A stretch of DNA of 64,000 nt from positions 31,198,501-31,262,500 of the forward strand of contig NC_080567.1 of assembly GCF_030253575.1 (NCBI RefSeq), written 5' to 3'. The DNA is from Rhododendron vialii (taxonomy: Eukaryota; Streptophyta; Magnoliopsida; Ericales; Ericaceae). The translations under genes and the position numbers were made by a program. The notes under the pieces were generated by a model. The model saw only the letters and a program-made list of their open reading frames with translations, was not told the DNA's origin and made no database searches. The first letter of the stretch is position 1. Each line of letters begins with the position of its first letter. Shown here in pieces: positions 24,828 to 64,000 of this stretch.

Positions 24828-28679
<3,852 letters not shown>

Positions 28680-37506: not shown

Positions 37507-37949
37507 GAGATTAACTTGTTTACAGTAGAGGTGTAAACTCAAGTTTACACCCTCACCATGTGTGGGCTCAATTGATAGTTTATCGTAATAATTTGAATCA
37601 TTCATTTTGTAGGGTCTATAAAATAGTGTATATAAGTAAAAAATCAGCTTGACCCAGCATCGGTAGTTATATCAAAAATTAAATTTTGATTTATAAAATG
37701 CACGGCTTGGATTCTGTCAATAGTTTTTAAGTTAAAATGATCTAGGCCATTGAATATATAAACCAAAATTTAAGTTTTGATATACCTACAGATGTTGAGT
37801 CAAGCTGATTTTTTGCTTGCGTGTACACTATTTTATGGGTCCTACAAAATGAACGGCTCAGATTATTGCGATAAATTGTTGATGGGGCCCACACATGGCG
37901 AAGGTGTAAACTTGGAGTTTACACCCCTATTGTAAACAAGTTAATCTCG
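37507..37949. mobile_element. Long-TIR foldback MITE, 443 bp
   Basis: GAGATTAACTTGTTTACAG at 37507 is matched by TTGTAAACAAGTTAATCTC ending at 37949, and the inverted pairing continues through GGTGTAAACTC...AAGTTTACACC and most of the interior (TGTGGGCTC / GGGGCCCACA, AAAATCAGCTTGAC / GTCAAGCTGATTTTT). It is nearly a complete palindrome with no coding content. GTAGA sequences occur on both sides. Confidence 0.8.
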
Positions 37950-41847: not shown

Positions 41848-41875
41848 CTAGGTGCTCCTTCGTGCACAGCACGAA
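41848..41875 (-). other. Helitron 3' terminus: hairpin plus CTAG
   Basis: On the minus strand TTCGTGC-TGT-GCACGAA forms a 7-bp perfect stem with a 3-base loop. After 7 bases comes CTAG, then host sequence beginning with T. This is the rolling-circle termination signal of Helitrons. Confidence 0.9.
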
Positions 41876-42249
41876 TGGATGCCCGTCAAAGAGAATAAGT
41901 TTTGAGATAAGTTAGGTATATATTGTTTGCAGTTTTAGAGTTGGAAGCAATAGAAGAGCCTGCAAATAGGTAGAGCACCCGAATAGACAGGTAGGTATAT
42001 TACATAGATTGTTGAAAGCACCAAAAGCATTGGTTGATCTAGATATGTAGATATATTATACAGATTGATCAAAGCATTAAAAGCAGCAGTTGTTTCGGAT
42101 AGGGAGAACAGAGTGTTTGGCTGATCCACACAGGTAGATATATTACATCAGCTGCGGTTGGAGCAGTCATATACAGGAGTGCAAAAGCAGCTAGAAGGAG
42201 AGCCTTTGATAGCAAAATATTGTCTTTCCAATCTTTTGTGGTTTCAGTT

Positions 42250-44509
42250 TAGGTTGGGTTTTTTGCCCGGATTTTGTTCGGCGACATGGGTGGATGCTGA
42301 TGCAGTGGCGCTTTTTTCGTTTTTGATGGGTGTTGCAGGAGGTAAAGCCAGCGGTTGTTCCAGATTCTGATGGTGATCCAATGTTGGTTCTGCGATGGTG
42401 GACATTGAATAGACATTGAACTTGCACTGGGAAATTCCAGCGTAGGTGTACTCATGTAAGCTTTGAGGGTGACATTGCATTTCTTTGGCTCAGCAAGCTG
42501 GTCAAGGAGTTCAGGCGAGAGCGGGGCCTGAATCATGTATTGAAGAAGCAGCAGCTATTTATTTATTTTGTGTGGGAAAGGCAGTATGTTTAAGGTATGT
42601 TTGGTGGAAAGAGGAATAGCATTCTTACATCAGGCTCAGTTGTGTCTATGTTGGCTCCTGTAATGCCATAGAATTGTTGCGTCGATTGATGCCGTTGGAT
42701 CGCTGACTTGAACGTTGAATTTGACCCTGTGATTTTGTGACATAGCAGGAAGGTTAAATGCGGATTGTACACTGCACAGATATTTTTTTTTTTGAATGAA
42801 AACTTGTTACCTTGTCACTGGCGAAACTCGTCGGGAACAATAATTGCACCAGAGTTCATCATTTTCATAGGCATTTGATGCTTTGTTGCACAGTGAGCAA
42901 GCCAAGTAATGGAAACGCTGATTGAAATTGGTGACCCTTGCTATGCCTTTGACATTTATGAGTTGGACCTGCAATGGGCTTGTAATATAAGCATGGTTTT
43001 TTTTTTTTTGGGTAAAGTGGAGCGAAACCTATGAGTTAGTATGAATGCCAGGAAACATAAATTTTGAGAATTTTGTGAAATTTTAGTGATAACTTTGTCG
43101 GGTGGCCTTGAATTAATTTGGCACAAGAAAGAAAAGATGAAGAGCATACATCTCGTTGGAAGAAGTTCATTGCATTGGAAAGAACAAAAAGGAAGAATGG
43201 CTTTAACGGGAAAGCAATGAAATGCTAAATTGTGTATGTGAATGATGTATGAGTAGGAGCTGACATGTACTGGGAGTGGACAAATGGTGTGTTTGCATTA
43301 CGAATATTTTGATGCATAGGGATAGTAAAGACAAAAGAGGTGTGGATAGTTTTGCATTAGTATTACCTTGTCCACTGATGTGGGAAGATTGATAATGTTG
43401 ATTGCATCAGTTGGTGGAGGGGCAGCAGATTTGACCATGAGAGCTTGCATTGATGTCATTGGTGGTAATTGTTTTATTTTTTTGGCATTTGCAAGGCACA
43501 TTTTCTGGGATCTGTGGATTGAGGATAAACGATGAGGTAATTTTGGTGGCAAGGGAAACACCTGAAAAAGAAAATGAATTTGGCTGTTTATGCAGTTGAT
43601 GGAAGCATAACGATATACGCAGGAAGTGATGATTACCGTAGTATGTCGAGGTCTTCAGCCTGTGTCCAAGTGCGACCGGAACGTGCCAGGCAAAGTTTGC
43701 ATTGCGAGTGCCTCATAATCGCTAAATTGATCCCAGAGAGATATGATGGTTGGTTGGAAGCTGAGAATTGTAGCATTTTTAGCATAGATTACTTTTGGCA
43801 AAGAATTGGGAGGGTTATTGAGTTTTTGTTTGTTTTTACCTTTGATCTATGACACGAACATCTGTAACATGCGATTGATTTGCTGGCTTTCGGGTGCCAA
43901 CTTCAAGAATGGCAAACAGCACATCTAGCAAAACAATGAGTAATGCGTGAGTTGGAATTTGGGTAGCGTAAATAGTGCAGGAGAGAGGAAGAAAAGTTAC
44001 CTAAATTGGGATCTGGATCGTTGATTTGGCCGAGGCTAGCGAGTGGAGTGAAGTCATACTTAATAGATCTTTGTGTCAAGCCATCAATTTTGATTGCCTC
44101 TACCGGTGTATGGGCATTGATAGTCAGCTGACATTTTTGCTCAAGGAAGCGGAACTGTTCTGGGGTAGCGGTGACAACATCGTTGCTTATGGAGTAGGTG
44201 TGGTACAGCTTCAGCGTGTCCTCTAGGATACGAATGTTGGTGCCAAAGACTGTTGCTTGAATTTTTGTTCCCTGGTGGTTGTAAGTTTTTCTCATTAAAA
44301 GTGGCATTAATTTGCGTGCATATAATCAGTATTTTGTGTGATCTAGGGGGCAGATTTTTTACCTCTTTATCTTGTAGCATGAAGCGCTGGTATTGCGAAG
44401 AACCCTTGGTTGACTGCTTTGGCATACTCTTTTCAACAATGATTGCTTGGATTGTGTAATTCTTGGAGTCAAGGTTCACTTCCTTGAGCGGCAAAATATT
44501 TGGTGCCAT
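42250..44509 (-). CDS. RPA70-like single-strand DNA-binding protein of the Helitron
   Basis: Helitron-encoded relative of the replication protein A large subunit, thought to protect single-stranded intermediates of rolling-circle transposition. Supported exons: 44363-44509 (MAPNILPLKEVN... to MLQDKE), 44001-44271 (GTKIQATVFGTNIRILEDTLKLYHTYSISN, an OB fold like DBD-A) and 43840-43924, in agreeing phase. Later exons are recognisable but not exactly bounded: about 43640-43775 (IISLWDQFSDYEALA, DBD-B-like), about 43370-43510, about 42800-42925 (zinc ribbon: ACSLCNKAS...ELWCNYCSRR, DBD-C), about 42640-42755 (RVKFNVQVSDPTASINATIL) and about 42300-42540 (LSPELLDQLAEPKKCNVTLKAY). Whether the lower exons are all intact is not settled. 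Confidence 0.8.
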
Positions 44510-44748
44510 TTGTTCCTGCAACGTGCACATGTTAGTACTTCATAAGCCAAGAACTACAGGAAAAGTATTGCATGCATGAATATTGTTTGAGTGGGTTTTT
44601 TGGTCATTTTTTTTTCTCTTTGTTGTTTTTTTGTTTCGTGTGTGATAGGGCTTTGTTGCTGAATGTATGGCAAGATATATACCTGTTCGCAGGTGAGTTT
44701 ATTTGGCTATACATGTACATAGAACAGTATTGTTTAGTTTATATATCG

Positions 44749-47700
44749 TCAAGAGCAGTTTGCTTCATGTAGTAGCTCTTTGTATACTATATTTTTGGTG
44801 CAAAAATAAGCTAATGGATCATTTTCTGAGTGCTTCAGATGTACTCTTATTTTTTCAGCTGTTGTTGCCCGCGATAATGCAACATAAAGCTGGCCATGAG
44901 AGAATACTGGCTCTGGCAAGTATACACCAACTTTGTTGAGCGTTTGTCCTTGAGCTTTGTTTATTGTCATAGCAAAGCATGGCCTTATTGGGAACTGACG
45001 ACGCGTGAACTGGACTGGGTATTGCTGAGGATTGCTTGGCTGGAGTGGAATCCTAGGAATGAAAACAATTGTGCCTTTTTTCTCACCAGCGGTGATTTGA
45101 GCAGTAATCAAGTGTTTGCTGAATTCCTTGCATATTAATCTTGTTCCGTTGCACAACCCCTTTGATGCGTTAATGTTTCGTAGTAGCAGAATTGGAATAT
45201 TTTTCTTCAAAAGCAATTGGTGTGCTGGCATTCCTGTGGGTAGCAAGGAGTGCAGGAAATCAATATACAATCCCTGTTGCGCAGGGTCAGTTGTTTCATC
45301 AAAACTTAGGTATGTATGCTCTTGCCCAGGAAATTTGGAAGTGATGACTTCATTGATTTCATCGACTGCACTATTTTTTGGTGTGAGTATAGCTGAATTT
45401 GAGAAGGATAATAGGTCAAACGAAGCTGTGGATAGACCTGGGAATACAAATTCGATCAGTTCATTCAGTGCTGGCACCATTTTTGTTGGCCTGAGAGCCA
45501 AGATGGGAGGAAGCTTGATCTGGCCAGTCTCATCCTCTTGTTCTAAGCCATTGCCGACGCGAAGAATGTAGCTACTGAATGCAGGGTCTGCTCTAGCACG
45601 CATATTTTGTTGTAATTTAAGCTTCGTCAATGATTGCCAAATGTAAGATCTTACCGAACTTGCATTTATACAATCTTGCTTTGTACCTCTTGGTATAACA
45701 GGTAGCACCTGCCTAAAGTCACCTCCAAGAACCACCACTTTTCCTCCAAAGAGAACATCACTGTCTGTAATATCTCGCAATAGATTGTCCAATGCTTCAA
45801 TTGCCTGTTTTTTGGCCATTGAAGCTTCATCCCAAATTATGAGGACCGCTTTTCTTAATAGAGTGGCCAAACCAGTTTGTTTACCGACATTGCAACAGAG
45901 TTTACCTTCTCCATGTATTGGGATTTTGAAACGGGAGTGGGCAGTTCGGCCATTGGGCAAAATCGATGCCACTACTCCAGAGCTAGCTGTTGCCAAGGCA
46001 ATTTTTCTCTGTGAGCGGACTGCCGCGAGTATGGCACGGTAAAGGAATGTTTTGCCTGTTCCTCCGGGTCCGTCGATGAAAAAACACTGTGATTTGTTAC
46101 TGAAAACTGCATCGAGGATTTGGTTGTAGGCTATGGTCTGTTCAGTATTTAGCAGAGCTGAGCTTTGGATATCTTCTTCAGAAATATGAAGATTCATTTC
46201 ATCTTGGAGTTCCCTACAAATTGATTCGTCATTTGCCGATGGAGTGAGAAGATAGGACAATTGATAATCGTGCAAAGTCTTGCCCATTGATTGCAATTCG
46301 GAGTTTAATGCTGCAAGCAGCTGCTGGCGTGCAGTTTCCTTTGTGAACTTTTGGACTGAAATGTAGTCCTCCATCATGTCATCTTCAAACTTGAACAATA
46401 ACTCTGCTGGATTTACCGGTGTGCAGTACACAAGAATTGTGCAAAACAACTGTCTCAGAGACATTGGCATTCGATATGTACATGCTTCTTGCATGCATTT
46501 TTCATTGCTGTCATCTGTTTGTAGGAGGCCATGAGCCACTGCTGCCTCTCTGTATGAATCATATGTTACTCCTTGGATAGTCCTCACATAAGCAAATGAA
46601 GTAGGACCTGGAACATGAGTTAACAGGAGCCTGAAGTAGTATTTCTCAGCTTCTTTTGGATTTACTGTGATAATTCTTCCAATCACCTCTTGTAGTTTGC
46701 GTTCGTGCCATGTTTTTGATTGGTAGTCCCATACATATTCTTCTGGAAAATTAGCATAGAGCAGCTTCTGTTCCTTTGCTTTTTTATGATTAGCATTCAT
46801 CCAAAAAAATTGTGTGAGCATTGTCTTGGATTTGAATTCATTATCTGCTATGCTCTGCAGATTGGCATCCTTTTTAAAATTGATCTTGTTGCAACCTTCA
46901 AGATGCAAGTGCAAGCTTATAACAGCAGGGCGCATCTCGTATAGAGGAAAACGATAGATTCGCCACATTGCCTCTGGTGGCGATATCCATCTTGCATCTT
47001 GGAATTGTCGTATCTCATCAATTTGTTCAGTCTGATCTGCAGTAACTAACTGATAGATGATCTTATCATGCCCCTTGTAGATGTACTTGTAAAGATATTT
47101 CACTGCCTTGATAGTCGAGCATACCTCAACATTAATATGGCAGTCAAACATAGCTAATAGGTAAGGATTATAGGGGACCACCCATCTATTATCCATCATA
47201 TGGCCATGTATCTTGACTTGCTGGCCATCTGGTCGTCTTCTGTATAAAGGGTATCCATCTGGGCAAAAACTGGTTTCTGTTGAGTAGCTCTTTGGGTAAT
47301 GGTTTTTGCATTTTTCCTTTTGCATACATGGGTTCTGGGGATTGAATTCTCCGCATGGTCCATGGAGCATATGCTTGATGACCATTGCATATAAATGTGG
47401 ATATTGACGTTTGTCTGGGATCTCTGCCGAAATGAAAGCATTAATCTTTTCAACTGTGTTGAACTTGTAGGCCTTCTTTAATATTATCAACATGTGGACA
47501 TGGGGCAGTCCTCTCTTCTGAAATTCAACTGCAAATGTGTACGCAGCTACTGGCCCAAAAAGCTCGTTCTTTATAACTTCTTTGCGCAGGTATTCGAATT
47601 TGCTCCGGAAAATTCTGGAAACCAAGTCAGGCCTATTCTGTACTTCTTCATGTGGTTTCAGCTGCGCTTTAATCTCTGCCCAATTTGGGTTACAGGTCAT

Positions 47701-49713
47701 GGTCAAGAAAAGATCCGGTTTGCCATATTTGCCAACAAGTGCCATTGCATCTAAGTACTGTCTTCGCATATCTCTTGGGCCACCAATAAAAGTTGCTGGG
47801 AGGATGACTCTTGTACCGATCTTGTTGGCATCAGATTCGCCATGGTTGACGCTATCAACAATGCCTTGGTATAGGTCTGCCCGGATTTCTTCCTGTCGAT
47901 TCTTGAAGTAATCCAACCTGATGTTTCAATTTTAACATACATATCGACAGCATATTGCTGTAGAAGTCGACCTGACTCGAGGAGGATTGAGTTTGTGCTT
48001 TTTCTGATCTGGAATCGATATGCATAAAATTCTCGAGCAGATACCATATATGCTTTGTCACCATTTTCCTGACGCACTGAATATACAAAAGTTTGTTAGT
48101 GTTTGCATGGATAAAAGAGAAAAGTTAATCAGAGATGCATTGTTTAGTTTGTGAAATCATAGGAACTGTTTTTTACCTGCTGCTTCATTGGCAAGGAGCT
48201 GTTCAGCTGTTGCTGAATGCCTTGGAAAAACCTTCCTTTGGCTTGGAGAAGGCTCTAATGCAGTGGTGGTCTTGGTCTTCTTAATTCCTTGATGCCATCC
48301 AGGTTCACCGAGGGGGAAAAGCAATGGATATTGGAGGGGATCATAACAGCCAAAGTAGTAGCTAATTCGTTTGCTATGACCGTTGTGTTTTTGCACAACT
48401 ATATCACGTTCCCTCAGCTCTTCCAGCTCTTCATCTTCTATCCACATGGCAGCAACCTGTGAAACAGTAGGTGGAAGTGCAGTTTTGTCTTGCATTTGAG
48501 GATTTGCTCTTAGCCTTATTTCATATTCATCAATATTTGGCACCTGACTGAGGCTCCGGAAGAACTGGGAGTATGGATTTGCCCTGAGCACGTCAATTAA
48601 TTGTTCTATAACATGTGGCAGCAATTTATCCTTGTCGCCTTTTCTGTTGCTGACTTCATTGCTTGTGTCGTAAAAGTAAAGTTGTAAGTATGATGACACC
48701 TGACCAGCTGGATAGAGGCTATCAAGCAAATGATAAATTTGGCCTTGCGCACGAAAAGTATAAATGCCATTAGTGCGCTTTGCGTAGATGGGATCAAGAT
48801 GGACACCCATTGAGGTAAATGCAAAAATATCATTATATGGCTTGATATATTGCAGAAAGTTGGCGGAGTCTGTCCCAGAACCTGAGTATAGCTGCTGGAG
48901 TTCTTGTGGAATAAGAATTGGATAAAGTGAGATGTCACCGGCAGAGCAGCAAAACTTTTGTGTTTCATGCGGGAATTTTATGGCTCCGCAAAATCTGCAG
49001 TTTTGCATTGATGGCAACATGAATGGTTCTGTTGGTATGGGACGCTGCTGAATAGTTGGTGCGAGCATTAGATTGCCAACTGTCACACCTATATTTTTAT
49101 GGATTAGGAATCAGGGATAGAAAGTGGAATTTAAGTATTGGTTATATGGTATAAGTCTGAACAAATACCTATGGAAATGTCGAATAGCATACCTACATGA
49201 AAGGAGGAGCATTAGAATTCGATCAACACGAAACAGAACAACCTGGAAGTGGGAAATTGCGTTTAAAAAAATGCGAAATTTACATACATGGTTCATCGGA
49301 GATCGAAGTTGATGGTAATGCTGAAGGGCCTGCAGAAAATAGAGAAGATCATTTGTTATCAGCTATAAAATTTCTGAATGGATGGGAAAAATGTACCTCG
49401 ATTGTTAAAACTAACCGAACAATAGTATGGATGACTGAAATCTGTGGACTGTACCTGCATTTTCTGCAGGCAAAACAGCGTGGTTGGGTGACATTTGCTG
49501 GTGATCATGAATGCGCTGCGGCAAATTGTCGGAGAAAACGCCTGGCTCTGTATTTTGGTTTGCACTGATTTGGTCTTGTATCTCAACTGTGAAGAGGTCA
49601 TCTTCCCTGTTTTTCTTTCGTGATCTCCAGGCTTTTTTTCTTGCATTTATTTTATCTTTTTGCTCTTGCGATAGCTGTGAATATGGTGTTCTTTTACGTT
49701 TGTTGTCGGGCAT
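44749..49713 (-). pseudogene. Helitron Rep/helicase (RepHel), one frameshift
   Basis: Four exons with agreeing phase: 49455-49713 (MPDNKRKRTPYSQLSQEQKD), 49288-49329, 48177-49088 (Helitron N-terminal region with the zinc-finger-like QNCRFCGAIKF...CCSAG) and 44749-48076. The last exon holds the HUH Rep motif (GLPHVHMLIIL), the two-tyrosine motif (YLYKYIYKG) and a PIF1 helicase with Walker A (GPGGTGKT), Walker B (IIWDEAS) and the C-terminal INKAQGQTLNKVGVYLP...HGQLYVALSRA. The frame breaks near 47920: upstream reads VDMYVKIETS and the conserved continuation RLDYFKNRQEEIRADLYQG is in another frame, consistent with one lost base. Apart from that about 1,510 codons are open. Autonomy depends on whether this base loss is real. 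Confidence 0.9.
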
Positions 49714-52700
49714 TTTTTGCTGTGCACAAATAAGTTCATGGTTTGTTTGGAGTCTTAGTTCTGTGTTATGGTATAGCATTTGTACATGACAAAGGCACAG
49801 GAGATGTTTTAGCAGTACAAACACCATATGCCAAGGAGAAACAACAGTGCACAAATGGAACCATAAATATGCCGAAAAAATGGGTATATGCAAGCATGCA
49901 GCACATAAGAGGACAATGTAAACCAGGAAACATGTTTGATCTCTTTAGATATGCATGTTCATAAGTTAAGGAAAGAGATAGAGGTACCAGAGGTTGTCTT
50001 TCCTAGCAATGATCAAGGATGAACCGGATGCTGCAGCCAATGTGGATGAAGAACTGGCCCTGATCTTGGAGCTATAGCCGCACTTGGTAACGGGCACAGT
50101 ACTTTGGTGCTGACTGTGGTTGGTGGAGAAAGTACGTGGGAGATGTAGGTGGTGGCTCACTATTATCCAGGCACACACTCTTCAAAAAAAAAAAATCCAG
50201 GCACACACAGTGTTGGGAAAGCACAATAAAAAAAAGATTTGTTTGGTGTAGCATCGGTTTTATTTTTTGGTTTGCCCTTTTTTGCTGAACATTATTTTGC
50301 GTAATCAGTGTGGTGTTTATGGAATAGGAGCGAAAGTTTTAAGCGATGGTAGAAATCAAAATTTTTCTGAAAAGGAATATAAATAAAGATTCATGTTAAT
50401 TTGATCTGCAATTTTTTTTTAAGTTGGCTGAGATTTTGTTCGCTAATTTATGATTAGTTCAATAATACCATGTTTATAGAATCCTCTAACACGTTACCAA
50501 AATTATTAAAAGACAGAAGCACTATGCTTTGGTTTTTTGGTTTTAGACCTTTTTGTAAAAGCAGAGTGAAAACCAACATTTTAGTTATTAATGCGCAATG
50601 AACTACAGACTTAATATACCTGTTGTCCAACAGTGCTTGATCAATTCCTTTTGGGGGAATGACTTCGGTGTCCCCGGTCATTTTGGGGACACCGTAACTT
50701 TTGACATAACAAAACCATTATGAGTATAACCAAAACCCATTACAAGCATAACAGAACTATAACAAGGCATAACCAAAACCATAGCAAGGCATAACTTATT
50801 TGTTATGCCTTGGTTGGATTTAGTTACGCCTTGGTTGGTTTTTTGGATATTCCTTGGTTATGCCTTGTTTGGGTTCTGTTATGCTTGTAATTGATTTTAA
50901 TTATGCTCCTAATGATAAAGTTATGGTAAAAATTACGGTGTCCCCAAAATAACCGGGGACACCATAGCATCATCCATTTTTTGGTATTGTTCTTGTTTAG
51001 GCAACATAAGATATCAAATAAATTTGTAAAATAAATGCACTGAAATGCAAAATATTACTTTTTTGTTTTATATAGTAAATGTTTTGCATTCTGAAGACAT
51101 GCGTTTTATTTCTAAATTCCATATATTTTTTAATCAACATCGTTTTACATAATTTTTTGGATTTTGTTTAATAAAATAAAATTTAATTTATAAAATATTA
51201 TTTACATTATCTATAAATTTTCAGCAAGGATAATTAAATTAAGATGGAAGGGCTAAAGATTTGCGTAAAATATGCATTGGACTCCGATTTTGATATTCTT
51301 GAAATTAATGGAAGGACTACAAAATTGAACTATATATGAATATGAAGAAGAATGCCATCTTCTAATTTCTCCATCAAGATTTAGGCCTTGCTGTAAAATA
51401 GGTTCTAAGTTGTATTTTTTTAAGAAGGCAATTTTAAGCTTAAAAATTGTGGATCTATTAAAATTTAAAAATATACAATATAGATCTTGTTTGTAATATA
51501 TTGATGCGATCCCTACACAATTAAAAAAAATTGGAAAATTATTTTCTATTGATATCATTTTTAAGTTTAAAACCGTGAAAGAAGCTGTTTATTATTTAGG
51601 ATAGGAAAAAGAAGGGTTTTCGAACGGGCCTCAGAGTGTTAAAACTAATTTGCTAATGCACTATGTATATATGTCTATATGTCTATATTGTCGGGGACAA
51701 TGATGCGACCATGCATGTAATTAATTGCAGATTTCAAGAAAGTGGGTGGCATCACTTGGCTGTGAGTGAATGATGTAGGCAGTTTAGAGAAGTGCACATA
51801 ATGATTATTTTTTTCAGCCTGCCACGAAACACATATTTTGCAGCATCTGAAAACGTGTAATCTAGTTTGCTTGTTAGCCAAGCGGACGGAAGGTTTCTTT
51901 GGTAACGAACCAGACCGATATTGATAGAACAGTACGCCAACCATAATGCAAAAGCAAGCCCTGCACCGCCGGTTTTGGTGTTCGCTGTCCTGCACACAAA
52001 AACCACATAGTTTGGCCCTTAAGATCTCTTGTTTTTTTGGTGCGCACTCTTTTTTGTTTTTCTTTATCAAGAATGGTCCTTTTTGGTTTTGCGATCGGCA
52101 AAAACTGGAATATCGTTCCCTTCTTGCTTGCGCAAAACTGTTACAGCACGAAAGAGAAGCCCTTTTTTTTTATGGAAGTTCTGTAAGTACTTTCGCACTG
52201 CCTTATTTTTTGTCCGACCTAGTAATCGGCAACGTAGATTTTCCGAATATACATACTACTTGCCAAAAACCCAAGTATCTAAACTATTCACATAAATAGT
52301 CAATTTAGAATCTAGATGGACCTAATCACTTTTAAATTCACGAAATCGTTGACCAGTGAACAATCTAAGTGTTGCATGCGACAAAAACAGCCATGGACGG
52401 CAAAACAATAATCTGAAAATCGTGTAAAGAAGACAGTAAACTAAAGCATTGCACTAATGCACGATCACCCCAAAATACCTGCATTCTAGTAATATATATA
52501 GATTTATCATTAGATGAGAAGAGATTGTGGCACCATTTCTCCTAGGCTGAGCACACTGAAAGAGAGGCTGAATATACAAAGCGTACACCCATCACAAAGG
52601 ATAACAACAACCAGTACATGCACACACATATACATAAGCTACAACGAAGCACAAATTTACACCAAACCCATCCGAAGCTGCCCAGAACAAGCCGAAACCA

Positions 52701-52791
52701 GTCGTACAGAGGATCCAAACCCCAAAAAAGGTGCAAAATAGTCCATACATAACATATATGCAGCAACTCCAAGAAAGCAAAAACCAGCAAA
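49714..52791. other. Helitron interior between RepHel and the B3-like gene; no clear gene
   Basis: About 3 kb, AT-rich in 50200-51600. It contains a foldback MITE (50660-50978). A minus-strand frame at 51675-52070 (131 residues) includes several cysteines (CGFCVQ, CRACFC) but matches nothing I recognise. The RepHel promoter should lie immediately right of 49713. Confidence 0.4.
50660..50978. mobile_element. Foldback MITE nested in the Helitron
   Basis: CGGTGTCCCCGGTCATTTTGGGGACACCGTAA on the left (from about 50666) and TTACGGTGTCCCCAAAATAACCGGGGACACC on the right (to about 50971) are inverted repeats. Each is itself partly palindromic (GGTGTCCCC...GGGGACACC). The interior carries repeated GTTATGCCTTG / CAAGGCATAAC motifs. 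Confidence 0.8.
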
Positions 52792-54244
52792 TCAAGCAAA
52801 GAACAGCCCAGCTAAAACTAGCCATAAACTCTCACTGTCATAGCGGCCATCGAAGACAATTACCCGGAACTCGACAGTAGGCAGCATGACAACCATGACA
52901 TGATTGAGACACTGAACAAAAAGCGCAGCAGCAAATTGATTGAATGCCTCAACATTCACCTGGAAATTTTGAATTGGGACAATCCAAGTTCGGCTACCCA
53001 TTTTGATCTCCATTTGCTCCAGCGCAAGCATCTTGAAAACATGCCTAAGGCGAAAGTTGAACTCCTGGGGAGGGGGCAATGAACACATACTGGTCAACAC
53101 AAAGGAATAAGCTTTTGAATGTAGCACACAATGAATGGCAGTGAACACAAACAAAAGAAAGGCAGGACATACACTGCGCAGGTCAGGCCCATATACATCA
53201 AAGTAAATGAACTTAACCACTACATGAGAATTGACAAGGATTGAAGGCAAGCAAGCAGTGCGCAGATCACCTAAAACCGAAAAGACAAATTACATAAATA
53301 TTAGCCAAAACCAATGGGATATCATGCACAAAGACAATCTGCTTGAAAAGATTGCACTGCTAACCTGAAGGCGGGGGCAAATCCTGCCAACGGCCAGCTG
53401 GGCTAGACCAATCAAACAAAAGTTCATAGCCATCTTTATCAAACATAGCCGTATGGAAGATCCACGTACGCTCACATGAAAAAACAATCCTATGGTCAAC
53501 TTCCAACTGATGTGCCTGACGGAACTCATTCCAATTTTTGCGAAACTCATGGTCGACAATTTCCACTGACCAAGCTTTTTTGCCATGGCGTAGGAGAACC
53601 CACACACTTGAACCATCAGTGGAGAAGTACTGACAAAGACCACGGGGCAACCTCTGCGAAAAAGCCGGACAACTCTATTACTGTATGCAAGCACCCCGAG
53701 GGATAATTCCCGGGGGGGGGGGGGGGTATTTGGGAAGGTAAGAGAATGCTGTACTTAACCTCAGTGATATCAGGCATGCAAAGTTTCTTCAGATACCAGC
53801 ATTCATCAACGACTGTGTAGCAAAATTTGAAAAGTAAATACCACAGAAAAAACGCAGAAATGAAAGGCTTTGTAAACACAAGATGAAAATTGATAGAATA
53901 GAAAACACCGCCAAATTCGCGAAGCAAAAAAATAGCCTCAATCAATATATACCTTCCTCGCTGTACCTCACAAATGAATGGTACACAAGATCATCCAACC
54001 ATGCGTTCAACTGGAAGCCATAATCCCACTCACCAACATCGCCCAAATTGAAAACACCGTGGTAGCTTTCAATAAACTCATGAAACAGCCGGTAAACCAT
54101 ACGATTATCAGCACGACGCACCGCAAAAGCAACAACCACCTGCTGCCCTTCAGCAGTTTCTAGATAATACGAAGCCACTGTTGAAGATAAGGGCGAAGGG
54201 TTGGGAATTTTATCCCAACGCAGAAACGGAACAGTAACCACCAT
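52792..54244 (-). CDS. Two-B3-like-domain protein carried by the Helitron, 334 aa
   Basis: Five exons with GT-AG borders: 53953-54244, 53760-53812, 53365-53653, 53173-53270 and 52792-53064. They add to 1,005 nt with agreeing phases and no internal stop. Exon 3 encodes a B3-like DNA-binding fold (VWVLLRHGKKAWSVEIVDHEF..FRQAHQLEVDHRIVFSCERTWIFHTAMFDKDGYE). Exon 5 holds a second, more divergent one (MEIKMGSRTWIVPIQNFQVNVEAFNQFAAALFVQ...VVMLPTVEFRVIVFDGRYDSE). The first exon (FLRWDKIPNPSP...VAFAVRRADNRMVYRLFHEF) is unassigned. It lies in the 5' part of the element, in the same orientation as RepHel. It may be a captured host REM/B3 gene or an accessory gene of this Helitron lineage. An ATG further upstream in a 5' exon cannot be excluded. 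Confidence 0.7.
53712..53726. repeat. 15-bp poly-G in an intron of the B3-like gene
   Basis: G homopolymer within the intron between exons 53365-53653 and 53760-53812. It does not affect the coding frame. Confidence 0.9.
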
Positions 54245-55091
54245 CCTGCAATGAAAACACAATCAGAAAGTAGAAAGTCACGTCGAACTACGAAAAGCAG
54301 AGTCAAACCGAACAACATTTATCCACGTCGAGATATCACAAAAACAACTCTGCAGATAAACCCGAAACTGCAAACGGAGGCAACCGCACGGAGGGCACGA
54401 ACGCAGACAACAACTCCGAGCAGATATATATATATATATATATGTTATATAATAACTAAAGCTGAGAAGCCAACACAACACAAACAACAATCAGAAATTA
54501 GCAGAGGAGATAACTCCAGGAAACACCTTTCACATGGAAAACGCAACAAAATCACACAAACACTCTGGACCTGTAAAAGGGAAACACATTATCTCATCCT
54601 CTCACCACTATATCCACAACGCACCACAATCCAAAACACAGACTGAATCCCGAAGGCATGACCAAACCGAGCCCCCCACGACAGCAAGCAGAACCCAAAA
54701 AAAATCGACAACATCATAAAGCATACCAGAGCCGTAGAAACGAAGAAAGAGACCAAGGCAGAACCGTCACCTGAAAAATCACCCAGCCGAAATCTCTAGA
54801 AACACAGAGGAGAAAACCAGAAATCAACGGAGCTTGCTCCAAGAAAAGAACCGAAATGCAAAGGAAGGGGGAGAGCGGACAGGGAAGACAGGCGAACGAA
54901 CGGCCAAGATTTTGCACGCATCCCGCAGAGCACCCAGATCACGCCAGACAGCCCACCGCCCCAGGCCCGCGCAAAATTACAATTTTAGACACCCAAAACC
55001 CTCAAGCCTAGAACCTCTAGGAACATTATTGGAAAAATTGGACAAAAATTGGCATCCCACAACCTGGTTCTTATTATTTAGGAGGATGGAA
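54245..55091 (-). other. Helitron 5' terminal region
   Basis: A-rich on the plus strand, with a short TA run (54424-54443). The minus strand begins TCCATCCTCCTAAATAATAAG at 55091, a plausible Helitron 5' end. It is likely to hold the leader or promoter of the B3-like gene. No further coding sequence recognised. Confidence 0.5.
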
Positions 55092-55522
55092 ATATGACAC
55101 CTTAGCTTCTTGAAATGTGGTAGTAGAGTTGGGCGAGACGTCTCGTCTCTATTTATGCTGACTGCCTTTACCTCTGTTTTTCATTTTTCAAAATAATCTG
55201 TTGATAAGTCCTCCGGCTGCTCCTCCTCATCCAGTTTCGCAAACACCCCCTTCTACTTCTCCAGGTTTAGTTGCATTTACTGTTACTTTTATTACCAGTA
55301 CTCGCTTAGTTGTTGCGCTATTGGGTATGGTTATATCTACGGTTATGCTTGTTGTCGTTGCAATCCCTTTAATTGTTCGAGATATTGGGTTCTATTCAAT
55401 TTACTAACATCCAATTCTGCATTTCTCAAACTTAAAGTCTTCCACGAATCAGACATTGGGACAGAAGACATACACTTTTATGAATTTTCTTGCTTTCTTA
55501 CCATTATATGCCTGAATTATTT

Positions 55523-58067
55523 TGGTAGAGACCCAAATTTTTGGTCCGTATTATTTTTTTTTAAGAAATATTGTAATTATCAAGTAAAGGTGTAAATTGC
55601 GGAAATACGAATAGTGCCGTGGTTATATGATTAGCGGGTTGATGTGATATTATTACAAGTGCAGGGGTACAAGTATGATAAGTGTATTTATATATGTGTG
55701 CGTGCGTGTGGACGTACAGGGGAAAAACCCATTTTCCCTTTTTCACTTTTTTTTCTCTTTCTCTCTCTCTCTCTCTATTCTCTGCGCTCTCTCCCTCCGA
55801 AACTCTCCCTCACTTTCTCTTCTCGATTTCATCTACTTAGGGCGCGATTTCGGACAAAGTCCAAAAATTAAAATTGTTCTATGGAGCGCGGGCTTCCTAT
55901 CTATCCCAGAAAATTCACGATCGGATCACGTTGGAGTTTCGGTTTCGCTCGGATCTTTGGGGTTTTGCTCAAAACAGAGGTAGGGATTTCTTACTCTTGT
56001 TATGCATTTATGCAATGTTTATGTACCTAGATCGTGTCTTGTTTCGTTGTTTGAGGCTGTTTCTTTCAATCTCGAAAATCTGCAGAATAGGGTCTCGGTT
56101 TTTGGGGTTTTTTGTCTTCTTAAACTTGGAATTGAATTTTGGTTCGTTCATATGAAATAGAGTAGACTTAAAGCTTGTTCTCATACCGCAAGAATCACCC
56201 AAAACCGTTGAGAGAATTGAATTAAAGGTGGATTTTAGAAAATTGGTAAGCAATTTGTCACGTTGTTGCTGCGTGACAGATTCATGTAGCTACTGAAAAT
56301 GCCTATTTTCCATCTTTGGAGTGCAGATTTGACAAGGGTTCCTTCGCGTCTTTTAAAATTTGTTCAATTGCGCAACTTTTGGGACTGGAATCGCTCAAAA
56401 ATATTAAGAACTCGATTTATAGAGATTTTTAAAAGATTGCTCTGTAATCTGGAAATCTGGGCAGTTTACTGAGTTGCGTTTATCATCGTTTGTTATGGTT
56501 GAACAACCCTATTGGTTATGGGTCCTTATGGGTTTTAAAGATTGGTAAGTTAGTGATGATTTGGCATTGGAATCATTGAAAAATATTGAGTATGTAATTT
56601 TTAATGAATTTTCGAACACTGACTGCTCTGCTGTCTTGGATTGTTTTTGCTGTTGGGGTATTGATCCCCATGTTGTGGGGGATTGATCCCCATGCTCTTT
56701 GGGACAGTTTTGGTCCGTTTGATTTTCGTTCGACAGTTTTGACCCCCGATCACTTCTAACACCTTTAAATATCGTTAAACCATCCCCCATCCCTAAGCTT
56801 GATTACTCGGGTTCCAATGATTCGATGATTATTCAAATTTCTTCGATACTCGTCAAGCATAATTTTAGTGTCATTGTAAACAGAATACGTGATGTAAGGT
56901 TGTTTAGGAGTACCGTAGGCTATGTGGGGCATTGTAGAGAGTATAGTTGGTAGATGTGAGCTTTTCTAGTGATCCAAGTAGTAGCATAGTAATGTGTGTC
57001 CGCATGACTCATTTATCCTTCAAACTCTTTTGGCGCTCGTTCCATGAGATCTAAGTGTCAATATTAGCGAGTAGTATGTTGTAGAGTCGCTATGGGGTTG
57101 GTACAGTATTGTGATATACTAAGGGAAAAAGACGTGTACTCATTTATCAGTTGATGTTCTGTTATGATTGATTGTTTGGAATACATTGAAAGGTGATTGT
57201 CGACGCGTGTTTGACCTGTAAGTCAGTTTCATTGACATGCTTTATTGTGACATGAGTTTAGAGAAATGTTTGTTGGAGTTGCATGATTATTGGAATTCGA
57301 GTGGCTGTAATTGAGAATTGGATGAGGAAGTAACTGCAACGCAAGGGGTGGTAATGCAAACTGCAATGCAAGGGGTGGTAGTGCAGAGACCTAAATAATA
57401 GGTGATGTTGACTGTAACGCAAGGGGTGGTAATGCAGACTACAACACAATGGGTGAAAATGCAGAGTGTTGAGATTTTGAGGAGTATCGAAATGGTTGAC
57501 AACCTATTGTGAGTACGTTTTGATTGATGTGAGTTTATTAATGCTTCTACATGACATGCAAATTGTTAGGAATACTTATAAGATGTTTGGAACCTTTTGG
57601 CCGTAGTCTGCCTTCCGTTGTGATAAATCCATGTTTCTCATGTTCACTTATCGAAATTCTTTCACTCTTTGTGCATACTTTATCGCATTTTCATTTAACT
57701 TGAGTATGGATTTCTCTACTGGGCACGTGTATGCTCAACCCTATCATTTTAAGGTATAAATCAAGGAATTGACATGGCGTGCTGGACGTGCTTGATTGAA
57801 CATATCATTAAAAAGGTATTCAAGAGGGACTTCATAGCATAAAATTTGAAGGACCATTTTGAAAATTTGATTATTGTAAATAGTAATATTGTTATTCCTT
57901 AGACACTGGTATTTTGGTAAGTTGGGGCCTTGAACCAGGGATGTACTCTTTGAATTTTATTTGAGATCAGTGAACAGAAAAGTCTTTTAGGTTATTATTT
58001 GTATAATAGCGAGGACTTTATTTATTAAAAGTGTTTATTATTTATGTTGAAAATTGAGGGCGTGACA
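55523..58067. mobile_element. Solo LTR, 2,545 bp, in the SERK pseudogene
   Basis: It begins TGGTAGAGACCC and ends GAGGGCGTGACA (TG...CA), flanked by a perfect 5-bp duplication TATTT (55518-55522 and 58068-58072). The intact SERK copy has a single TATTT at 994-998, so this is an exact empty-site comparison. No retrotransposon proteins or second LTR are present. A GA/CT-rich leader-like block lies at about 55755-55830 and 24-25-bp GCAAGGGGTGGTAATGCA repeats at about 57335-57455. Probably a Ty3/gypsy family by its GGGCGTGACA end; that is inference. Confidence 0.92.
57335..57460. repeat. Short tandem repeat inside the solo LTR
   Basis: AACGCAAGGGGTGGTAATGCA-type units occur four times (about 57337, 57363, 57415 and 57441), two pairs separated by a diverged spacer. 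Minus-strand frames over it give repeated HY-HPL-C peptides, which are artefacts. Confidence 0.85.
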
Positions 58068-59316
58068 TATTTAAACAGAAGTAGAGTGTATTTGAGGTTG
58101 GATTCTTTAACTAGTGTTGGTGGGGCTTGGTTTTCACCAAAATTGTCAACTGGTTGATTCTTTAACTAGCGTGGGTAGGGTTTCTGTTTTCACCAAAATT
58201 GTCAACAGTCAATCGATTTCAGATAAATTAAAATGGTTAAACTGACTTTTCATTGTCCAATTTTCTTCTAGTAGGCAGTGGTACCACTGGAGCCATTGCT
58301 GAAGGAGTTGCTGCTGGTGCTGCCCTGTTGTTTACTACCCCTGCAATCGCACTTGCTATGTTGAGACTAAGAAAACCACAGGATCATTTCTTTGATAAAC
58401 CTGGTCAGTGGGCTAAGCAGAAAATTGCTTATAAAGTTGTTTTTTTTTCTGGTAACTAAAACTCGTTTCACGAATGCAAGACCTTACAAAAGGATCAACA
58501 GGGGGACATGCTCCTGGAACTACAAACAAAAAACTAGCAAATCATTCTTGCATTGGCGAAACAATTGTAGCAACCATCAAAACTCTATTCAAACTATACT
58601 CAAATCGGAAAAGAGAAACAAGAGCAGTTAATTCATTTTACCTTCTTGTTGCAGCCGAAGAGGTTCATCTAGGACAGCTCAAGCGGTTTTCTTTGCGTGA
58701 ACTACAAGTTGCAACTGATAATTTTAGCAACAAAAATATTTTAGGGAGTGGTGGATTCGGTAAGGTCTACAAAGGGCGCTTGGCTGATGGCTCTCTTGTG
58801 GCAGTGAAAAGACTAAAAGAGAAGCGTACTCAGGGTGGGGAGCTGCAGTTCCAAACAGAAGTGGAAATAATCAGTAAGGCTGTCGGTCGAAATGTACTCC
58901 GTTTACGTGGATTTTGCATGACACCAACTGAACGGTTGCTTGTCTATCCGTATATGGCCAATGGCAGTGTTGCATCGTGTTTAAGAGGTAATACTTGGTG
59001 GCCTCTTTATATGCTTTTCTTTTCTTCTCTGTTGCTTTTTTCAGGGAATGATTTAGCCCCCTCTTTTTTGAACTGCACTCCTTTTTTGGTCTCGACTGAC
59101 GTGAATTATAATGTTGCCCTGTAATTTGCAGTAATTGTGGTGAGGACTACATTATTTGAATTGGTAGTTTTGTGATTTCACCTAAATAAAGACGACAAAA
59201 AGGAATGGGAGTGCACAAATGGGCAGCATTAATATTGTTTCCTTTATTATGGGTGAATCTTAGATGGATTTGGTTAATATTGTTTCCTTTGGTTATATCT
59301 TCTTTAGGCAGGTGAA

Positions 59317-59934
59317 GTGGGAGATTCTTGCGTTGATGGGGGTGTTTTTTCAAGGGGTGATTTGGTTTTGGGCAGGGTGTCTAGGGGTTGTTTTTCTGAT
59401 GTAGAGGAGGGGAGTGCGAGCTCAGTAGGGCTGGAAATAGTTCCTTTTTCCGGTTTGGATCAGAGGGAGGGTTTGGCGTGGGATGTTGCAAGTGAGGAGG
59501 AGTTACTCAACCATTTGGGGTGGGTGCATGATCTAGTTGATGACATGCTGGTAATGAGTAAGGGGTTGCCCAATCCGTTGGCGGTTAAGGAGCCTGAATG
59601 GACGTTGAAGGAGGGAGATAATCTGGTCCCTGGAATGTCTCAAGCGGAAGTCTCTAGATGGGTTCTAAAGATAATTAAAGGCTTCAGTAAATTCTTGGGT
59701 GTTTCTTTTGATGGCTTTGAAGATAGAACAATGCAGTTATTCTCAAAAATTGAAGAAAAGTGGAAGAAAGGGGCAGCATCGAAAGTTAAAAAAGGGAGGA
59801 GCAAAGTAAGCAAAAGAGTTAGAGAATTAAAAAGGTTACAGAGTTCTGTTAACTATGAGGGTTGTAAGAAGGTGGGAGAGGGAGATAGCGTAGGGGTGGG
59901 AGGAGTTAACCTTGTATCTTTCTATGAAAATTAA
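59317..59934 (+). pseudogene. LINE ORF1 C-terminal part
   Basis: A 205-residue frame that starts inside the truncated element. The segment MSQAEVSRWVLKIIKGFSKFLGVSFDGFED followed by a basic KKGRSKVSKRVRELKRL tail is the type found just before the endonuclease in plant L1 elements. N-terminal nucleic-acid-binding parts are missing. Confidence 0.6.
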
Positions 59935-60670
59935 AATCCTTAGTTGGAATGTGAAAGGATTGAGTGCTAGGGAGAAGAGGATGGTCATTAAATCTCTTCT
60001 TCAGGAATGGAAGGCGGATGTGGTTTGTCTTCAAGAAACTAAGTTAAAGGAGGTTTTGAGGGAGAAAATTAAGGAGATTTGGGGGAGTCGTTGGGTAAAG
60101 TGGATCCATCTAGATGCGTGTGGGACAGCAGGGGAATTTTGTTGATGTGGGATACTAGAGTGGTGGAGAGAATTGATGTGGAGTATGGTGTTTTTCAGTG
60201 TCCTATTTGTTCAAGACAGTGGAGGATGATATTGAATGGGCTATCACAGGAGTATATGGGCCAGTGATTAATGGCCATAGGGAGGATTTCTGGGAAGAGC
60301 TTTTGGTAGTAGCATTTCGTTGGGGCGTTCCGTGGTGTGTGGGAGGAGATTTCAACGTAGTTCGGTTCCCTCATGAAAGAATGGGATGTAATTCTATTTC
60401 GCGCAACATGAGAAGATTCTCAGATTTTATCAATGATTTGGAGCTTGTAATGGTAGTAGATTCACATGGTCCGGGAATTTGGATGATAGATGTATGTCTC
60501 GCATTGATCGATTCTTGATCTCTTCTTCTTGGGAGGAGCTTTGCCTGGAGCTGATTCAACATGCGCTTCCAAGACCTACCTCAGATCATGTCCCAATTTT
60601 ATTAGACAGTGGAGGGATTTGTCGTGGAAGGACCCCTTTCCGGTTCGAGAATATGTGATGGTTGTTCGAG
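59924..60670 (+). pseudogene. LINE endonuclease domain, frameshifted
   Basis: Begins MKIKILSWNVKGLSAREKR and contains LQETKLKE, both endonuclease motifs (WN, QE). The frame shifts near 60130 and again near 60200, after which AITGVYGP and WCVGGDFNVVRFPHER continue the domain. It shifts once more near 60490, where MDRCMSRIDRFL would be expected. Not functional. Confidence 0.75.
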
Positions 60671-61015
60671 GGCTTCTTAGAAAGAGTGGGCGAATGGTGG
60701 AATAGTTATGAGGTAGTGGGGAAGCCAAGCTTTATCTTAGCTAAAAAGCTCAGATTGTTAAAATAGGATTTCTGAATATGGAATACCGAGATCTTTGGAA
60801 ATTTGGCGGCTCAAAAGGCCAAGGTGGTTGATGAGATCAGTCGTTTGGATTTGGATGAACAAGTTTGGGATTTAAGGGAGGAAGAGAAGGTTCGGAGAGC
60901 CAAGGCAAAAGATGAATTCGGAAAAATTGCAAAGTTTGAAAAAATTAATTAGAGATAGAAATCTAGAAACTTGTGGTTAAAATAGGGAGATAGAAATACT
61001 AGATTCTTTCACAGA

Positions 61016-63530
61016 ATGGTCAATTGTAATAGGAGAAAGAACTTTATTGGAAAGATCAAGATTGGCAATAGTCTATTGGAGGAGGAAGAGGAGGTAAGAA
61101 CAAGTATTGCTAACTTCTACGCTAGTTTGTTCAAAGAGGAGGGAGTGTATCAGTCTCGAGTTGATAATTTGGAGTTCGAATCTATCTCGGGGGAGGAGGT
61201 TCATTGGTTAGAAAGACCGTTTGAGGAATCCTAAGTCCTTGCTCTTAAATCGATGAATGGAGATAAAGCGCCCGGTCCAGATGGTATGTCTTTAGCCTTT
61301 TTTCAACATTGTTAGGGAGTGGTGAGGGAGGAAGTGATGGGCATGTTCCATTATTTTTGGAGGTTTGGAGAGTTTGAACGCGTCTTTTGTGGCCTTGATC
61401 CCGAAAAAAGGAGGCGCGGAGGACATCAAGAACTTTAGACCTATCAGTTTACTTGGGGGAGCATACAAGTTGTTGGCTAAAGTGATGGCAATTCGTTTGA
61501 AGAAGACAGTAGGGAAGGCTGTGTGCGAAGCCCAAAATACTTTTGTTGAGGGTAGGCAAATTCTTGATGCATCCCTGGTTGCTAATGAGTGTGTGAATTC
61601 GAGATTAAAGTGCAGAATTCCTGGTATCATGTGCAAGTTGGATATTGATAAGGCTTATGATCATGTTAACTGGGACTTTTTGATCTATATTATGCAACGA
61701 ATGGGGTTTAGAGAGCGGTGGAGGAAATGGATAAAATTTTGCATCTCATCTGTTAGCATGTTAGTCTTGGTGAATGGGTCTTCAGCCGGTTTCTTTCAGA
61801 CTTCTAGAGGATCGCATCAAGGCGATCCCCTTTCATCCCTCCTTTTCATTTTGGTCATGGAGGTACTAAGTAGGGGGATTCTTGAAGGGTGTTGAAGTTG
61901 GGAGGGCAGACGGTGCGGGGTTGATGGTCTCTCATATTTTTTATGCCGACGACACGCTGGTGTTTTGCAATGCGGAGGTAACTCAAGTGGGCTATCTTAG
62001 ATGTGTTCTTTTGTCCTTTGAGGCTGTGTTAGACCTTAAAGTGAATTTGGGAAAGTTAGAAATGATTCCGATTGGGGCGGTTGAGGATATTGGTGCTCTT
62101 GCTCAAATTTTGGGTTGTTGGGTGGCGTCTCTCTCATCGGTGTATCTTGGTTTGCCTTTGGGATCTTCTTTCAAATCTAAATCTGCGTGGGATTCGGTTG
62201 TAGAAAGATTTGAGAAGAGAATGGCAGGTTGGAAACGCCAAGATATGACAAAAGGAGGTAAAGTTACTTTGATTAAAAGCTCCCTTTCAAATCTGTCTAC
62301 TTATTTTATGTCATTGTTTACCATTCCGGTTTCGGTGGCGAGGAGGTTAGAAAAGATTCAAAGAGACTTTCTTTGGAACGGCGTAGCGGTTGTGGTCAAA
62401 TGTCACCTCGTTGACTGGGATACAGTTTGTGCTCCCATTAGAGAGGGAGGTTTGGGTGTGAGGCGCTTAAAGTTTTTCAATCACGCTTTGTTGGGCAAAT
62501 GGCTTTGGAGGTTTGCGAGTGAAAGGGAGCGATGGTGGAGGAAAGTAGTTGCTGCGAAATATGGTTTCAGATGGGGAGATTGGTCGTCTTTGGGTGTGAG
62601 ATCGCCTTATGGGGTGTCGTTGTGGAAGGGGATTATGAATGGGTGGGATGTCTTCGTAAAGAACACCCATTTTTTGGTTGGTGATGGGAGAAGGGTAAAG
62701 TTTTGGGAGCAAGTGTGGTGTGGGGAAGTGACCTTGCGGGAAGAGTTCCCGAGTATTTTTAGTTTGGCTAGTGACACAAATGTTAATGTTTCCGAGTATC
62801 TCCATTTTCGTGAAGGAGTTGTGGTTTGGGACACCCGTTTGCGAAGGGATGTGAATGAGTGGGAGGAAGAGGCTTTGATGGCGTTGCTTTCTATAGTGTA
62901 TGGTCTGCAAAGACTAGGAGGAGGAGAGTATGAAATTCGGTGGAATTTATCCATAGATGGCTCCTTTCGGGTGAAATCCTATTATGAATCTTTTCATGCA
63001 AGGGATACTTCTTTTTCTTGGAAAGCAATCTGGAAGACGAAGGCACCTTTAAAGGTGAGTTTTTTCGTTTGGTGTGCGGCTCAAAGCAAGATTCTTACCA
63101 TTGATAATTTGATCCGAAGGTTGAGAATTATTGTCAATTGGTGTTATATGTGCAAAAGAGATGCGGAGTCGGTTGATCATCTCATTCATTGCCCGGTGGC
63201 TTGAGAGCTTTGGACTATGGTTCTTTCTTGGTTTGCTATGCGATGAGTCATGTCGAGGAGTGTGATGGACCTCTTAATCGCTTGGAGAGGTGCAAAAGTT
63301 GGAAAGAAGCAGAAGCAAGTTTGGTTTTTGATCCCTCTTTGTCTAATGTGGATCATTTGGTGGGAAAGAAATTTGAGATGCTTTGATGGGGTGGAAAAAC
63401 CTTTATATAGAATCAAAAGTTTTTTCGTGAATAGTTTGTTTAGTTGGGACGAGAGAGAATGTGATCCTTCTCTTCACCAATTTTTAGATTGGTTTGAGCT
63501 TTTCTTTTCTCTTGGAAGTGTATAGGGCCT
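61016..63530 (+). pseudogene. LINE reverse transcriptase and zinc-binding domain, broken
   Basis: The RT core spans a stop near 61232 (after FEES, before MNGDKAPGPDG) and another at about 61314. It then has LIPKKGGAEDIKNFRPISLL, DIDKAYDHVNWDF and HQGDPLSSLLF, a frameshift near 61885, and the catalytic FYADDTLVF at 61938. The 61882-63204 frame continues through thumb and connection (GLPLGSSFKSK) to the zinc-binding segment (SFFVWCAAQSKILTIDNLIRR...CYMCKRDAESVDHLIHC), and the rest of the C-terminus is in a third frame (63250-63525). Several independent breaks make it inactive. Confidence 0.85.
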
Positions 63531-64000
63531 TTTTGTCTCGTGGCCTATTTGTATTCGGGTGGCATTATCTTAATGCCTTCATCTATATAGTTATTTACTT
63601 GTCAAAAAAAATAAAAAAATCTTCTTTAATCTCTTTCAATTGATGCTTTGATGCTAAGAAAATTCTTAAGACTTAAAAACCATGATCAAACATACTTCCC
63701 AGCTTATGCTGTGAAGGAAGCTTGAAATATTTTTCTGCATTATGGAATTCTGTACAAGAATATCAAAGCTTGCTAATGCTAATAAACATGCCATTTGTAT
63801 ATATTGTAGTTTTCCCTATGTCAGATAAAATGGGAAATTTCGATAAATACCAATATTCAGAGTCTTGATTCCTAAATCCTAACCTGCTTAATCTCTAAAT
63901 ATTTGCATGATCTCGCTTGTGCATTGTTGTAGAGCGATCTGAAACACAGCCCCCGCTTGATTGGCCAATAAGGAAGCGAATTGCTTTGGGATCCGCTAGA

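Follow-up and report, generated by a model that had tools for sequence, protein, structure and literature searches.

A B3-like gene as a probable accessory gene inherited within a clade of plant Helitrons in Rhododendron vialii

Introduction

Why does a Helitron of Rhododendron vialii carry an open, multi-exon gene directly behind its 5′ end, and does this gene belong to the transposon or to the host? The question is raised by a stretch of 64,000 nucleotides (hereafter the window), in which the initial annotation recognized a five-exon gene for a protein with two B3-like domains and suggested that, if conserved in related Helitrons, it would be an accessory gene of the element. Helitrons are characterized by TC/CTRR ends, insertion into AT or TT, no target-site duplication and a 3′ hairpin (PMC4683698). 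The extra Helitron parts named in the papers covered here are RPA, OTU and AP endonuclease (PMC6431247, PMC4683698). Here we describe the element in the window, its relatives in one genome (532.6 Mb in 13 contigs) and the selection acting on the B3-like gene, and we conclude that the gene has very probably been inherited as an accessory gene within a clade of plant Helitrons. The order of parts in this clade would be 5′ end, B3-like gene, RepHel, RPA and 3′ hairpin. How the encoded protein may serve the element is then considered together with the alternatives.

The Helitron and its parts

The ends of the element were fixed from an empty site in the same window, which confirms that the gene lies inside a Helitron (Table 1). 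A block with a kinase domain, which we take to be SERK-like, is duplicated in the window (1-505/41318-41828, 648-998/55119-55522, 986-2229/58060-59285 and 2221-2592/63619-64000). The first copy lacks the 13-kb segment and is therefore usable as the empty site, at about 509/510, beside which there are small further differences. As expected of Helitron ends, this comparison gives T^T as the target and no target-site duplication. Besides the Helitron, two insertions occur in the second copy of the block and are absent from the first: one of 2.5 kb at about 55522-58060, and a LINE-like one, with a zf-RVT protein, at about 59285-63619.

Helitrons have a G/C-rich hairpin about 10-12 bp before the 3′ end, and in the element it is followed by 11 bases. 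Its 7-bp stem is shorter than the 15-20 bp motif given in PMC4683698, a figure that counts everything; with the loop the hairpin measures 17 bases. RepHel combines Rep and PIF1-like helicase domains, and its frame is broken, as noticed at first sight, between the main open stretch and the nearer upstream piece, both of which match Helitron_like_N. The genome contains 42 matches to the terminal 300 bases at the 5′ end of the element, 32 of them beginning at base 1 and the rest between bases 3 and 15. At 33 further places from this search only the 5′ end region is matched, over stretches of 46-224 bases and mostly from base 1; these are probably small non-autonomous relatives.

Several other features were observed in the window. 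Between the B3-like gene and RepHel there is an inverted repeat (50667-50963; 110-bp arms, 85% complementary) that may be a small nested MITE, and nested inverted repeats at 37507-37948, with arms of 34, 91 and 79 bp, are possibly another. A tandem array occupies 16464-16996 (113-bp unit, 4.7 copies, 92% matches). An F-box/Kelch gene (29099-30616, minus strand) and a partial class I/II aminotransferase gene (27206-27751, plus strand) are probably ordinary host genes.

Table 1. Features of the window element and other complete elements of the family (positions without a contig name are those of the window).
Feature	Position	Strand	Remarks
Whole Helitron, 13,243 bp	41848..55090	minus	5′ TC at 55090, 3′ CTAG at 41848
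3′ terminal hairpin	41848..41875	minus	7-bp stem, 3-nt loop, then 11 bases ending CTAG
5′ leader, 846 bp	54245..55090	minus	between Helitron 5′ terminus and B3-like ATG
B3-like accessory gene (probable)	52792..54244	minus	five exons, 334 codons then stop
Exons of the B3-like gene	54244-53953, 53812-53760, 53653-53365, 53270-53173, 53064-52792	minus	from splice assembly
Exon 1	53953..54244	minus	conserved N-terminal domain, without Pfam match
First B3-like domain	53365..53812	minus	exons 2-3; Pfam B3 at residues 116-177
Second, weaker B3-like domain	52792..53270	minus	exons 4-5; final 12 residues unlike the family
Upstream RepHel piece	48160-49110	minus	without Pfam match; assigned by position and resemblance to the ORF preceding the L040 RepHel
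Upstream RepHel piece	47754-48095	minus	Helitron_like_N, E 2e-4
RepHel main open stretch	44752..47925	minus	Helitron_like_N, E 3.9e-48; PIF1 helicase, E 1.6e-70
RPA-like pieces 3′ of RepHel	43906..44539	minus	by-eye alignment with L037:471-743; without own Pfam match
Element, about 13.6 kb	C1:7501273-7514851		B3-like gene first, RepHel second
Element, about 13.6 kb	C4:18790669-18804297		B3-like gene first, RepHel second
Element, about 14.0 kb	C12:12351432-12365447		B3-like gene first, RepHel second

Gene structure and copies in the genome

Reading of the frame and splice assembly reproduced exactly the 334-residue frame, with its five exons and agreeing phases, that had been reported for the window; all four introns are GT-AG, with phases 1/0/1/0. 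An Rfam search gave no match. When 18 other copies were scanned, the C-terminus proved to be ER[IV]Y-x-W[FL] followed by a stop in all 11 readable ends. The window copy alone has a divergent tail of 12 residues, which a small length change shortly before the end of the gene could explain; its frame is open, yet its last residues are not those of the family.

How common is the gene? A DNA search of the genome returned at least 36 matching pieces, and two protein searches at least 136 and at least 153; among viral, bacterial and archaeal contigs no relative was confirmed. Seven near relatives (C6:6.59, C1:14.1, C7:17.2, C4:10.0, C6:1.66, C6:10.7 and C6:25.2 Mb) are Helitrons of 4.1-5.1 kb that combine the 5′ end region with a fragment of the B3-like gene and with a hairpin region at the 3′ side, whose last bases are CTAG and T. 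At the DNA level nothing in them matches the main RepHel stretch; one, C7a, retains about 210 bases of the piece preceding it. In three of the seven (C1a, C7a and C6b), the outermost bases at the 5′ side are altered. As these short elements were located via the B3-like gene, their retaining it proves nothing alone. A 95% copy on C8 has only 51676-55090 in common with the window element.

In the divergent part of the family, splice-aware alignment gave exons of 292, 62, 292, 98 and 243 bases with phases 1/0/1/0 (the final figure being cut at the query end) in five of the eight loci adjoining divergent RepHels, namely L029, L030, L031, L034 and L036; L032, L033 and L035 have other junctions or frame steps. 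The near copy on C8 has exons of 292, 53, 289 and 98 bases. L030 and L031 are the two among the eight that are free of both stops and frame steps. The five-exon structure thus persists at 32-35% protein identity, and an exon model arising by chance is ruled out by the exon lengths and phases kept across loci.

Three other elements have 5′ and 3′ termini of the same kind enclosing both the B3-like gene and RepHel (Table 1). They represent two subfamilies, the C1 and C4 elements belonging to one (B3 92% identical) and the C12 element to another. The divergent clade was read directly in eight stretches of 4.5 kb and three 3′ stretches, RepHel being placed from its genome-wide matches. In seven of the eight stretches a 5′ end (for example TCCTCCTCC, TCCTACTCC or TCCTCTCCC) lies 0.7-1.4 kb before the ATG; that of L034 was not placed. 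Each 3′ end has a hairpin and GCACCTAG, then a T, and coincides with the point at which the elements cease to be similar. The hairpin architecture of the window element recurs in L037 and L038, and with an imperfect stem in L039. L037 also contains a piece of RPA that matches the C-terminal model (PF08646) below the cut-off, with E 8.1e-4. In at least one element, the B3-like gene and the main RepHel stretch are both stop-free.

Linkage to RepHel

Is the gene inherited together with RepHel? The 52 RepHel matches in the genome were joined by hand into 37 loci, one of which (C11:9.42-9.43 Mb) was assembled from pieces 12 kb apart. These were set against 74 B3-like loci from the first protein search and 30 matches from a search with L040, a far relative that lies 5′ of a 64% RepHel; the protein search with at least 153 matches was left out of this count. 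A B3-like match was found within 15 kb of 18 of the 37 RepHel loci, two of the 18 being loci that supplied the queries, against a mean of 0.24 and a maximum of 4 in 2000 trials of random placement.

The linkage is clearest for RepHel loci of at least 70% identity. Twelve of these 14 loci have the B3-like gene within 15 kb, always at the 5′ side and on the same strand; for the remaining two the distance is 26 kb and about 50 kb. Two of the twelve, both on C1, are equally spaced and may be one duplicated region. The initial annotation had looked to independent insertions with the same gene next to RepHel as support for an accessory role; beside divergent RepHels of the nearest class, gene, side and orientation are all conserved. 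At lower RepHel identity, linkage within 15 kb was seen at two of seven loci (60-69%), three of five (50-59%) and one of eleven (40-49%), the two queries giving no B3-like match within this distance at the remaining five, two and ten, respectively. All three linked matches of the 50-59% class are 5′ of RepHel yet on the opposite strand (C4:30.11, C11:16.53 and C11:20.99 Mb). B3-like matches also lie 3′ of RepHel at C2:32.70-32.71 and C11:13.70 Mb and on both sides of it at C1:33.39 Mb, and some loci have several at the 3′ side.

Selection inside the transposon

Comparison of copies from different Helitrons by dN/dS, which had been recommended at the outset, indicates purifying selection. Nei-Gojobori rates were obtained for the 28 pairs formed by eight divergent RepHel-linked copies: dN/dS is 0.19-0.37, with upper bounds of at most 0.50, in 25 pairs (dS 0.35-0.76) and 0.34-0.53 in the three closest. 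Because both members of each pair are Helitron genes, this selection acted inside the transposon.

For the window copy, dN/dS is 0.17 (0.11-0.25) against L028 at a dS of 1.34, which is near saturation, 0.26-0.43 against the divergent clade, where the values are saturated, and 0.44 (0.22-0.90) against C8; L028 against C13a gives 0.15. Among copies lacking RepHel, the pair C6b-C4 gives 1.25 (0.75-2.23), with broken frames and an alignment that may add false changes, and the pair C6a-C1a gives 1.13, from five changes. Since the window copy or C8 paired with RepHel-less copies also yields 0.34-0.44, RepHel-less copies are set apart by two pairs only.

Host genes and origin

These results bear on the most obvious alternative, that a single Helitron recently captured an intact host B3 gene, which it now carries as a passenger without a role. 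Helitrons do take up host gene fragments (PMC4683698, PMC6431247), and the introns of the B3-like gene are kept, as they would be in capture of DNA. Against this, copies of the gene are many, and those examined share their termini; the gene also stands beside divergent RepHels and has been under selection while inside elements. Nor does a donor appear: at least 139 host B3 matches were found in the genome, and when these 139 were compared with the 109 listed loci of the Helitron family (74 plus 35), the nearest pair was 32 kb apart. With no host B3 match close to the listed Helitron loci, no recent donor is seen. Among the 31 loci from the L040 search, one is a host B3 gene itself, and another (C2:34.24 Mb) is separated from a host match by about 13 kb. 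The initial annotation had envisaged a gene found in one Helitron copy only and nearly identical to a single host locus; what we found is a gene of many copies, and no listed Helitron match coincides with a host B3 match. Recent host capture was accordingly rejected, and we consider the passenger explanation very improbable. An old origin of the gene from a REM-like gene is likely.

The encoded protein

Does the gene encode a B3 protein? The B3 fold is an open beta barrel. Of the two B3-like domains claimed initially, what holds is a consistent match to the Pfam B3 model (PF02362); the match is weak, and every score lies below the curated cut-off. Residues 116-177 of the window protein match with E 0.0068 and 16.8 bits, under the cut-off of 30.1. 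Five of eight family members match, the best with E 8.7e-4, again below the cut-off. The best support for two B3-like domains comes from alignments of L040, which has the N-terminal domain and two B3-like domains. Its second and third parts match Pfam B3 with E 0.013 and 0.0019, and the higher of its two domain scores is 18.5 bits and the lower 15.9, both below the cut-off. Compared with the family, its N-terminal domain aligns with P 1.3e-4, its first B3 domain with P 1.1e-9; the first B3 domain of the family also aligns with the third part of L040, at P 1.3e-5. Within the window family, the first and second domains compared with each other reach P 0.013 only.

A different beta-rich fold, and hence an accessory gene of other biochemistry, is suggested by the sub-threshold Pfam scores, by PDB sequence searches that gave no meaningful match and by the structural models. 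Two AlphaFold models made without an alignment were both poor (pLDDT 36 and, for exon 3 as a single sequence, 57.7), and a Foldseek search of the PDB gave no match at E of 0.001 or less, the top matches being proteases and no B3 chain occurring among the best 50. Nevertheless, none of 24,736 Pfam models fits the window protein or either L040 domain better than B3. A weak sequence bridge to the host also exists, through L040 and not through the window protein: its first B3 domain reaches the host locus C11:36359022-36359291 (E 6.9e-4, 31% identity), which overlaps a B3 match of 45.2 bits, over the cut-off. We therefore regard another fold as unlikely, and the product is probably, as far as profiles and alignments can tell, a B3-like, double-strand DNA-binding protein with a conserved N-terminal domain.

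Possible function and the 5′ leader

What might such a protein do for the transposon? It would bind DNA sequence-specifically, and its substrate would be the element's own DNA. The most likely target would be the 5′ leader, through which the protein would activate the element's transcription or free it from silencing, in the way VANC acts for VANDAL transposons; the alternative target would be the element ends, where it would guide RepHel. VANC proteins target fast-diverging noncoding tandem repeats of their own VANDAL elements (PMC10398659, PMC13317346) and induce loss of silent marks (PMC10398659). We give regulation through the leader somewhat less than an even chance. A narrower version would be VANC-like self-recognition: the protein would bind fast-changing leader repeats and lift silencing or drive RepHel and RPA in its own subfamily only, protein and leader evolving together. 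We propose this tentatively, the balance being against it. Such co-evolution, if real, would account for a protein that diverges far faster than RepHel, and the B3-like proteins are 32-35% identical where RepHel has 71-73%.

In favour of the leader as target, the B3-like gene comes first in the element, and the leaders have some of the properties to be considered here. They change fast between subfamilies, those of L031 and L033 being alignable only in pieces. Direct repeats, which differ between subfamilies, cover 27-70% of the length of six of 11 leaders; host windows have a mean of 7.5%, and 13.5% of them reach 20%. The repeats are not wholly specific to the leader, as repeat content exceeds 0.2 in four of eight stretches just downstream of the B3-like gene; it is 0 in 14 other stretches (three from the window element and eleven from L037, L038 and L039). 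No such repeats were found in the leaders of the window element, L030, C6a and C4. The L031 stretch contains direct repeats of 107 and 162 bp at 522-735 and 980-1303, and others occur in the L029, L034 and L035 leaders. TGCATG is the RY motif of some B3 proteins. It occurs 19 times in five leaders against 3.7 expected and is enriched in four of the five, all from divergent elements, a post hoc count that consists partly of repeat copies; the window's own leader has none.

The other target would make the protein a transposition co-factor, which binds the Helitron ends, either at the 5′ TC region or at the 3′ hairpin, and assists RepHel in recognising them. The B3-like gene is the one nearest the 5′ end, elements carrying it resemble one another in their termini, and the seven short copies, which lack the main RepHel stretch, have retained their 3′ end and most of their 5′ end along with parts of the gene. 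It was the gene itself, however, that led to these short copies, and the first bases are altered in three of them. The 33 places with the 5′ end region alone fit action in trans and show nothing. We consider a co-factor role rather doubtful. The protein might instead act on host genes, by host manipulation or by mimicry of REM regulators, B3/REM proteins being described as plant regulators. Co-evolution with the noncoding DNA of the element itself, however, would explain the fast divergence of the protein no less well, and action on the host seems to us quite unlikely.

Relation to known systems and significance

One of the closest known systems is the plant B3 superfamily (PF02362), presumably its REM-type members, with which the product shares a weak profile match over the conserved core and two B3-like domains. 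The present gene differs in scoring below the cut-off, in its additional conserved N-terminal domain, in being transposon-borne and in that no host B3 match lies close to the listed Helitron loci.

VANC is likewise an accessory protein encoded by a transposon (PMC10398659, PMC13317346). Its carrier is a VANDAL-type MULE, whereas the present carrier is a Helitron and so of another transposon class, and the resemblance is one of logic. PHRPA of Mothra and its relatives is, like the B3-like gene, an extra gene in plant Helitrons with and without RepHel, and has been proposed as a transposition helper (PMC4683698). It is a homologue of RPA, which binds single-stranded DNA, whereas the present gene is B3-like and lies 5′ of RepHel, in addition to RPA-like pieces at the 3′ side. 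The OTU protease and AP endonuclease of Helentrons are also accessory coding parts of rolling-circle transposons; as described in PMC6431247, they are different proteins, from animal and certain fungal elements. Among open-licence PMC papers, a scope that leaves Repbase reports outside, we found no literature on a B3-like gene in Helitrons.

The B3-like gene would provide a known transposon with a new class of accessory gene. In the literature searched, plant Helitrons have so far been described with RepHel and often RPA, and the B3-like gene would add a third, intron-bearing gene under selection. Selection on this gene across deep divergence suggests that the element encodes its own, probably double-strand, DNA-binding protein. 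The protein is a candidate for how Helitron proteins recognise their own ends and also for how Helitrons escape silencing, and some genes annotated as B3-like in plants may belong to transposons.
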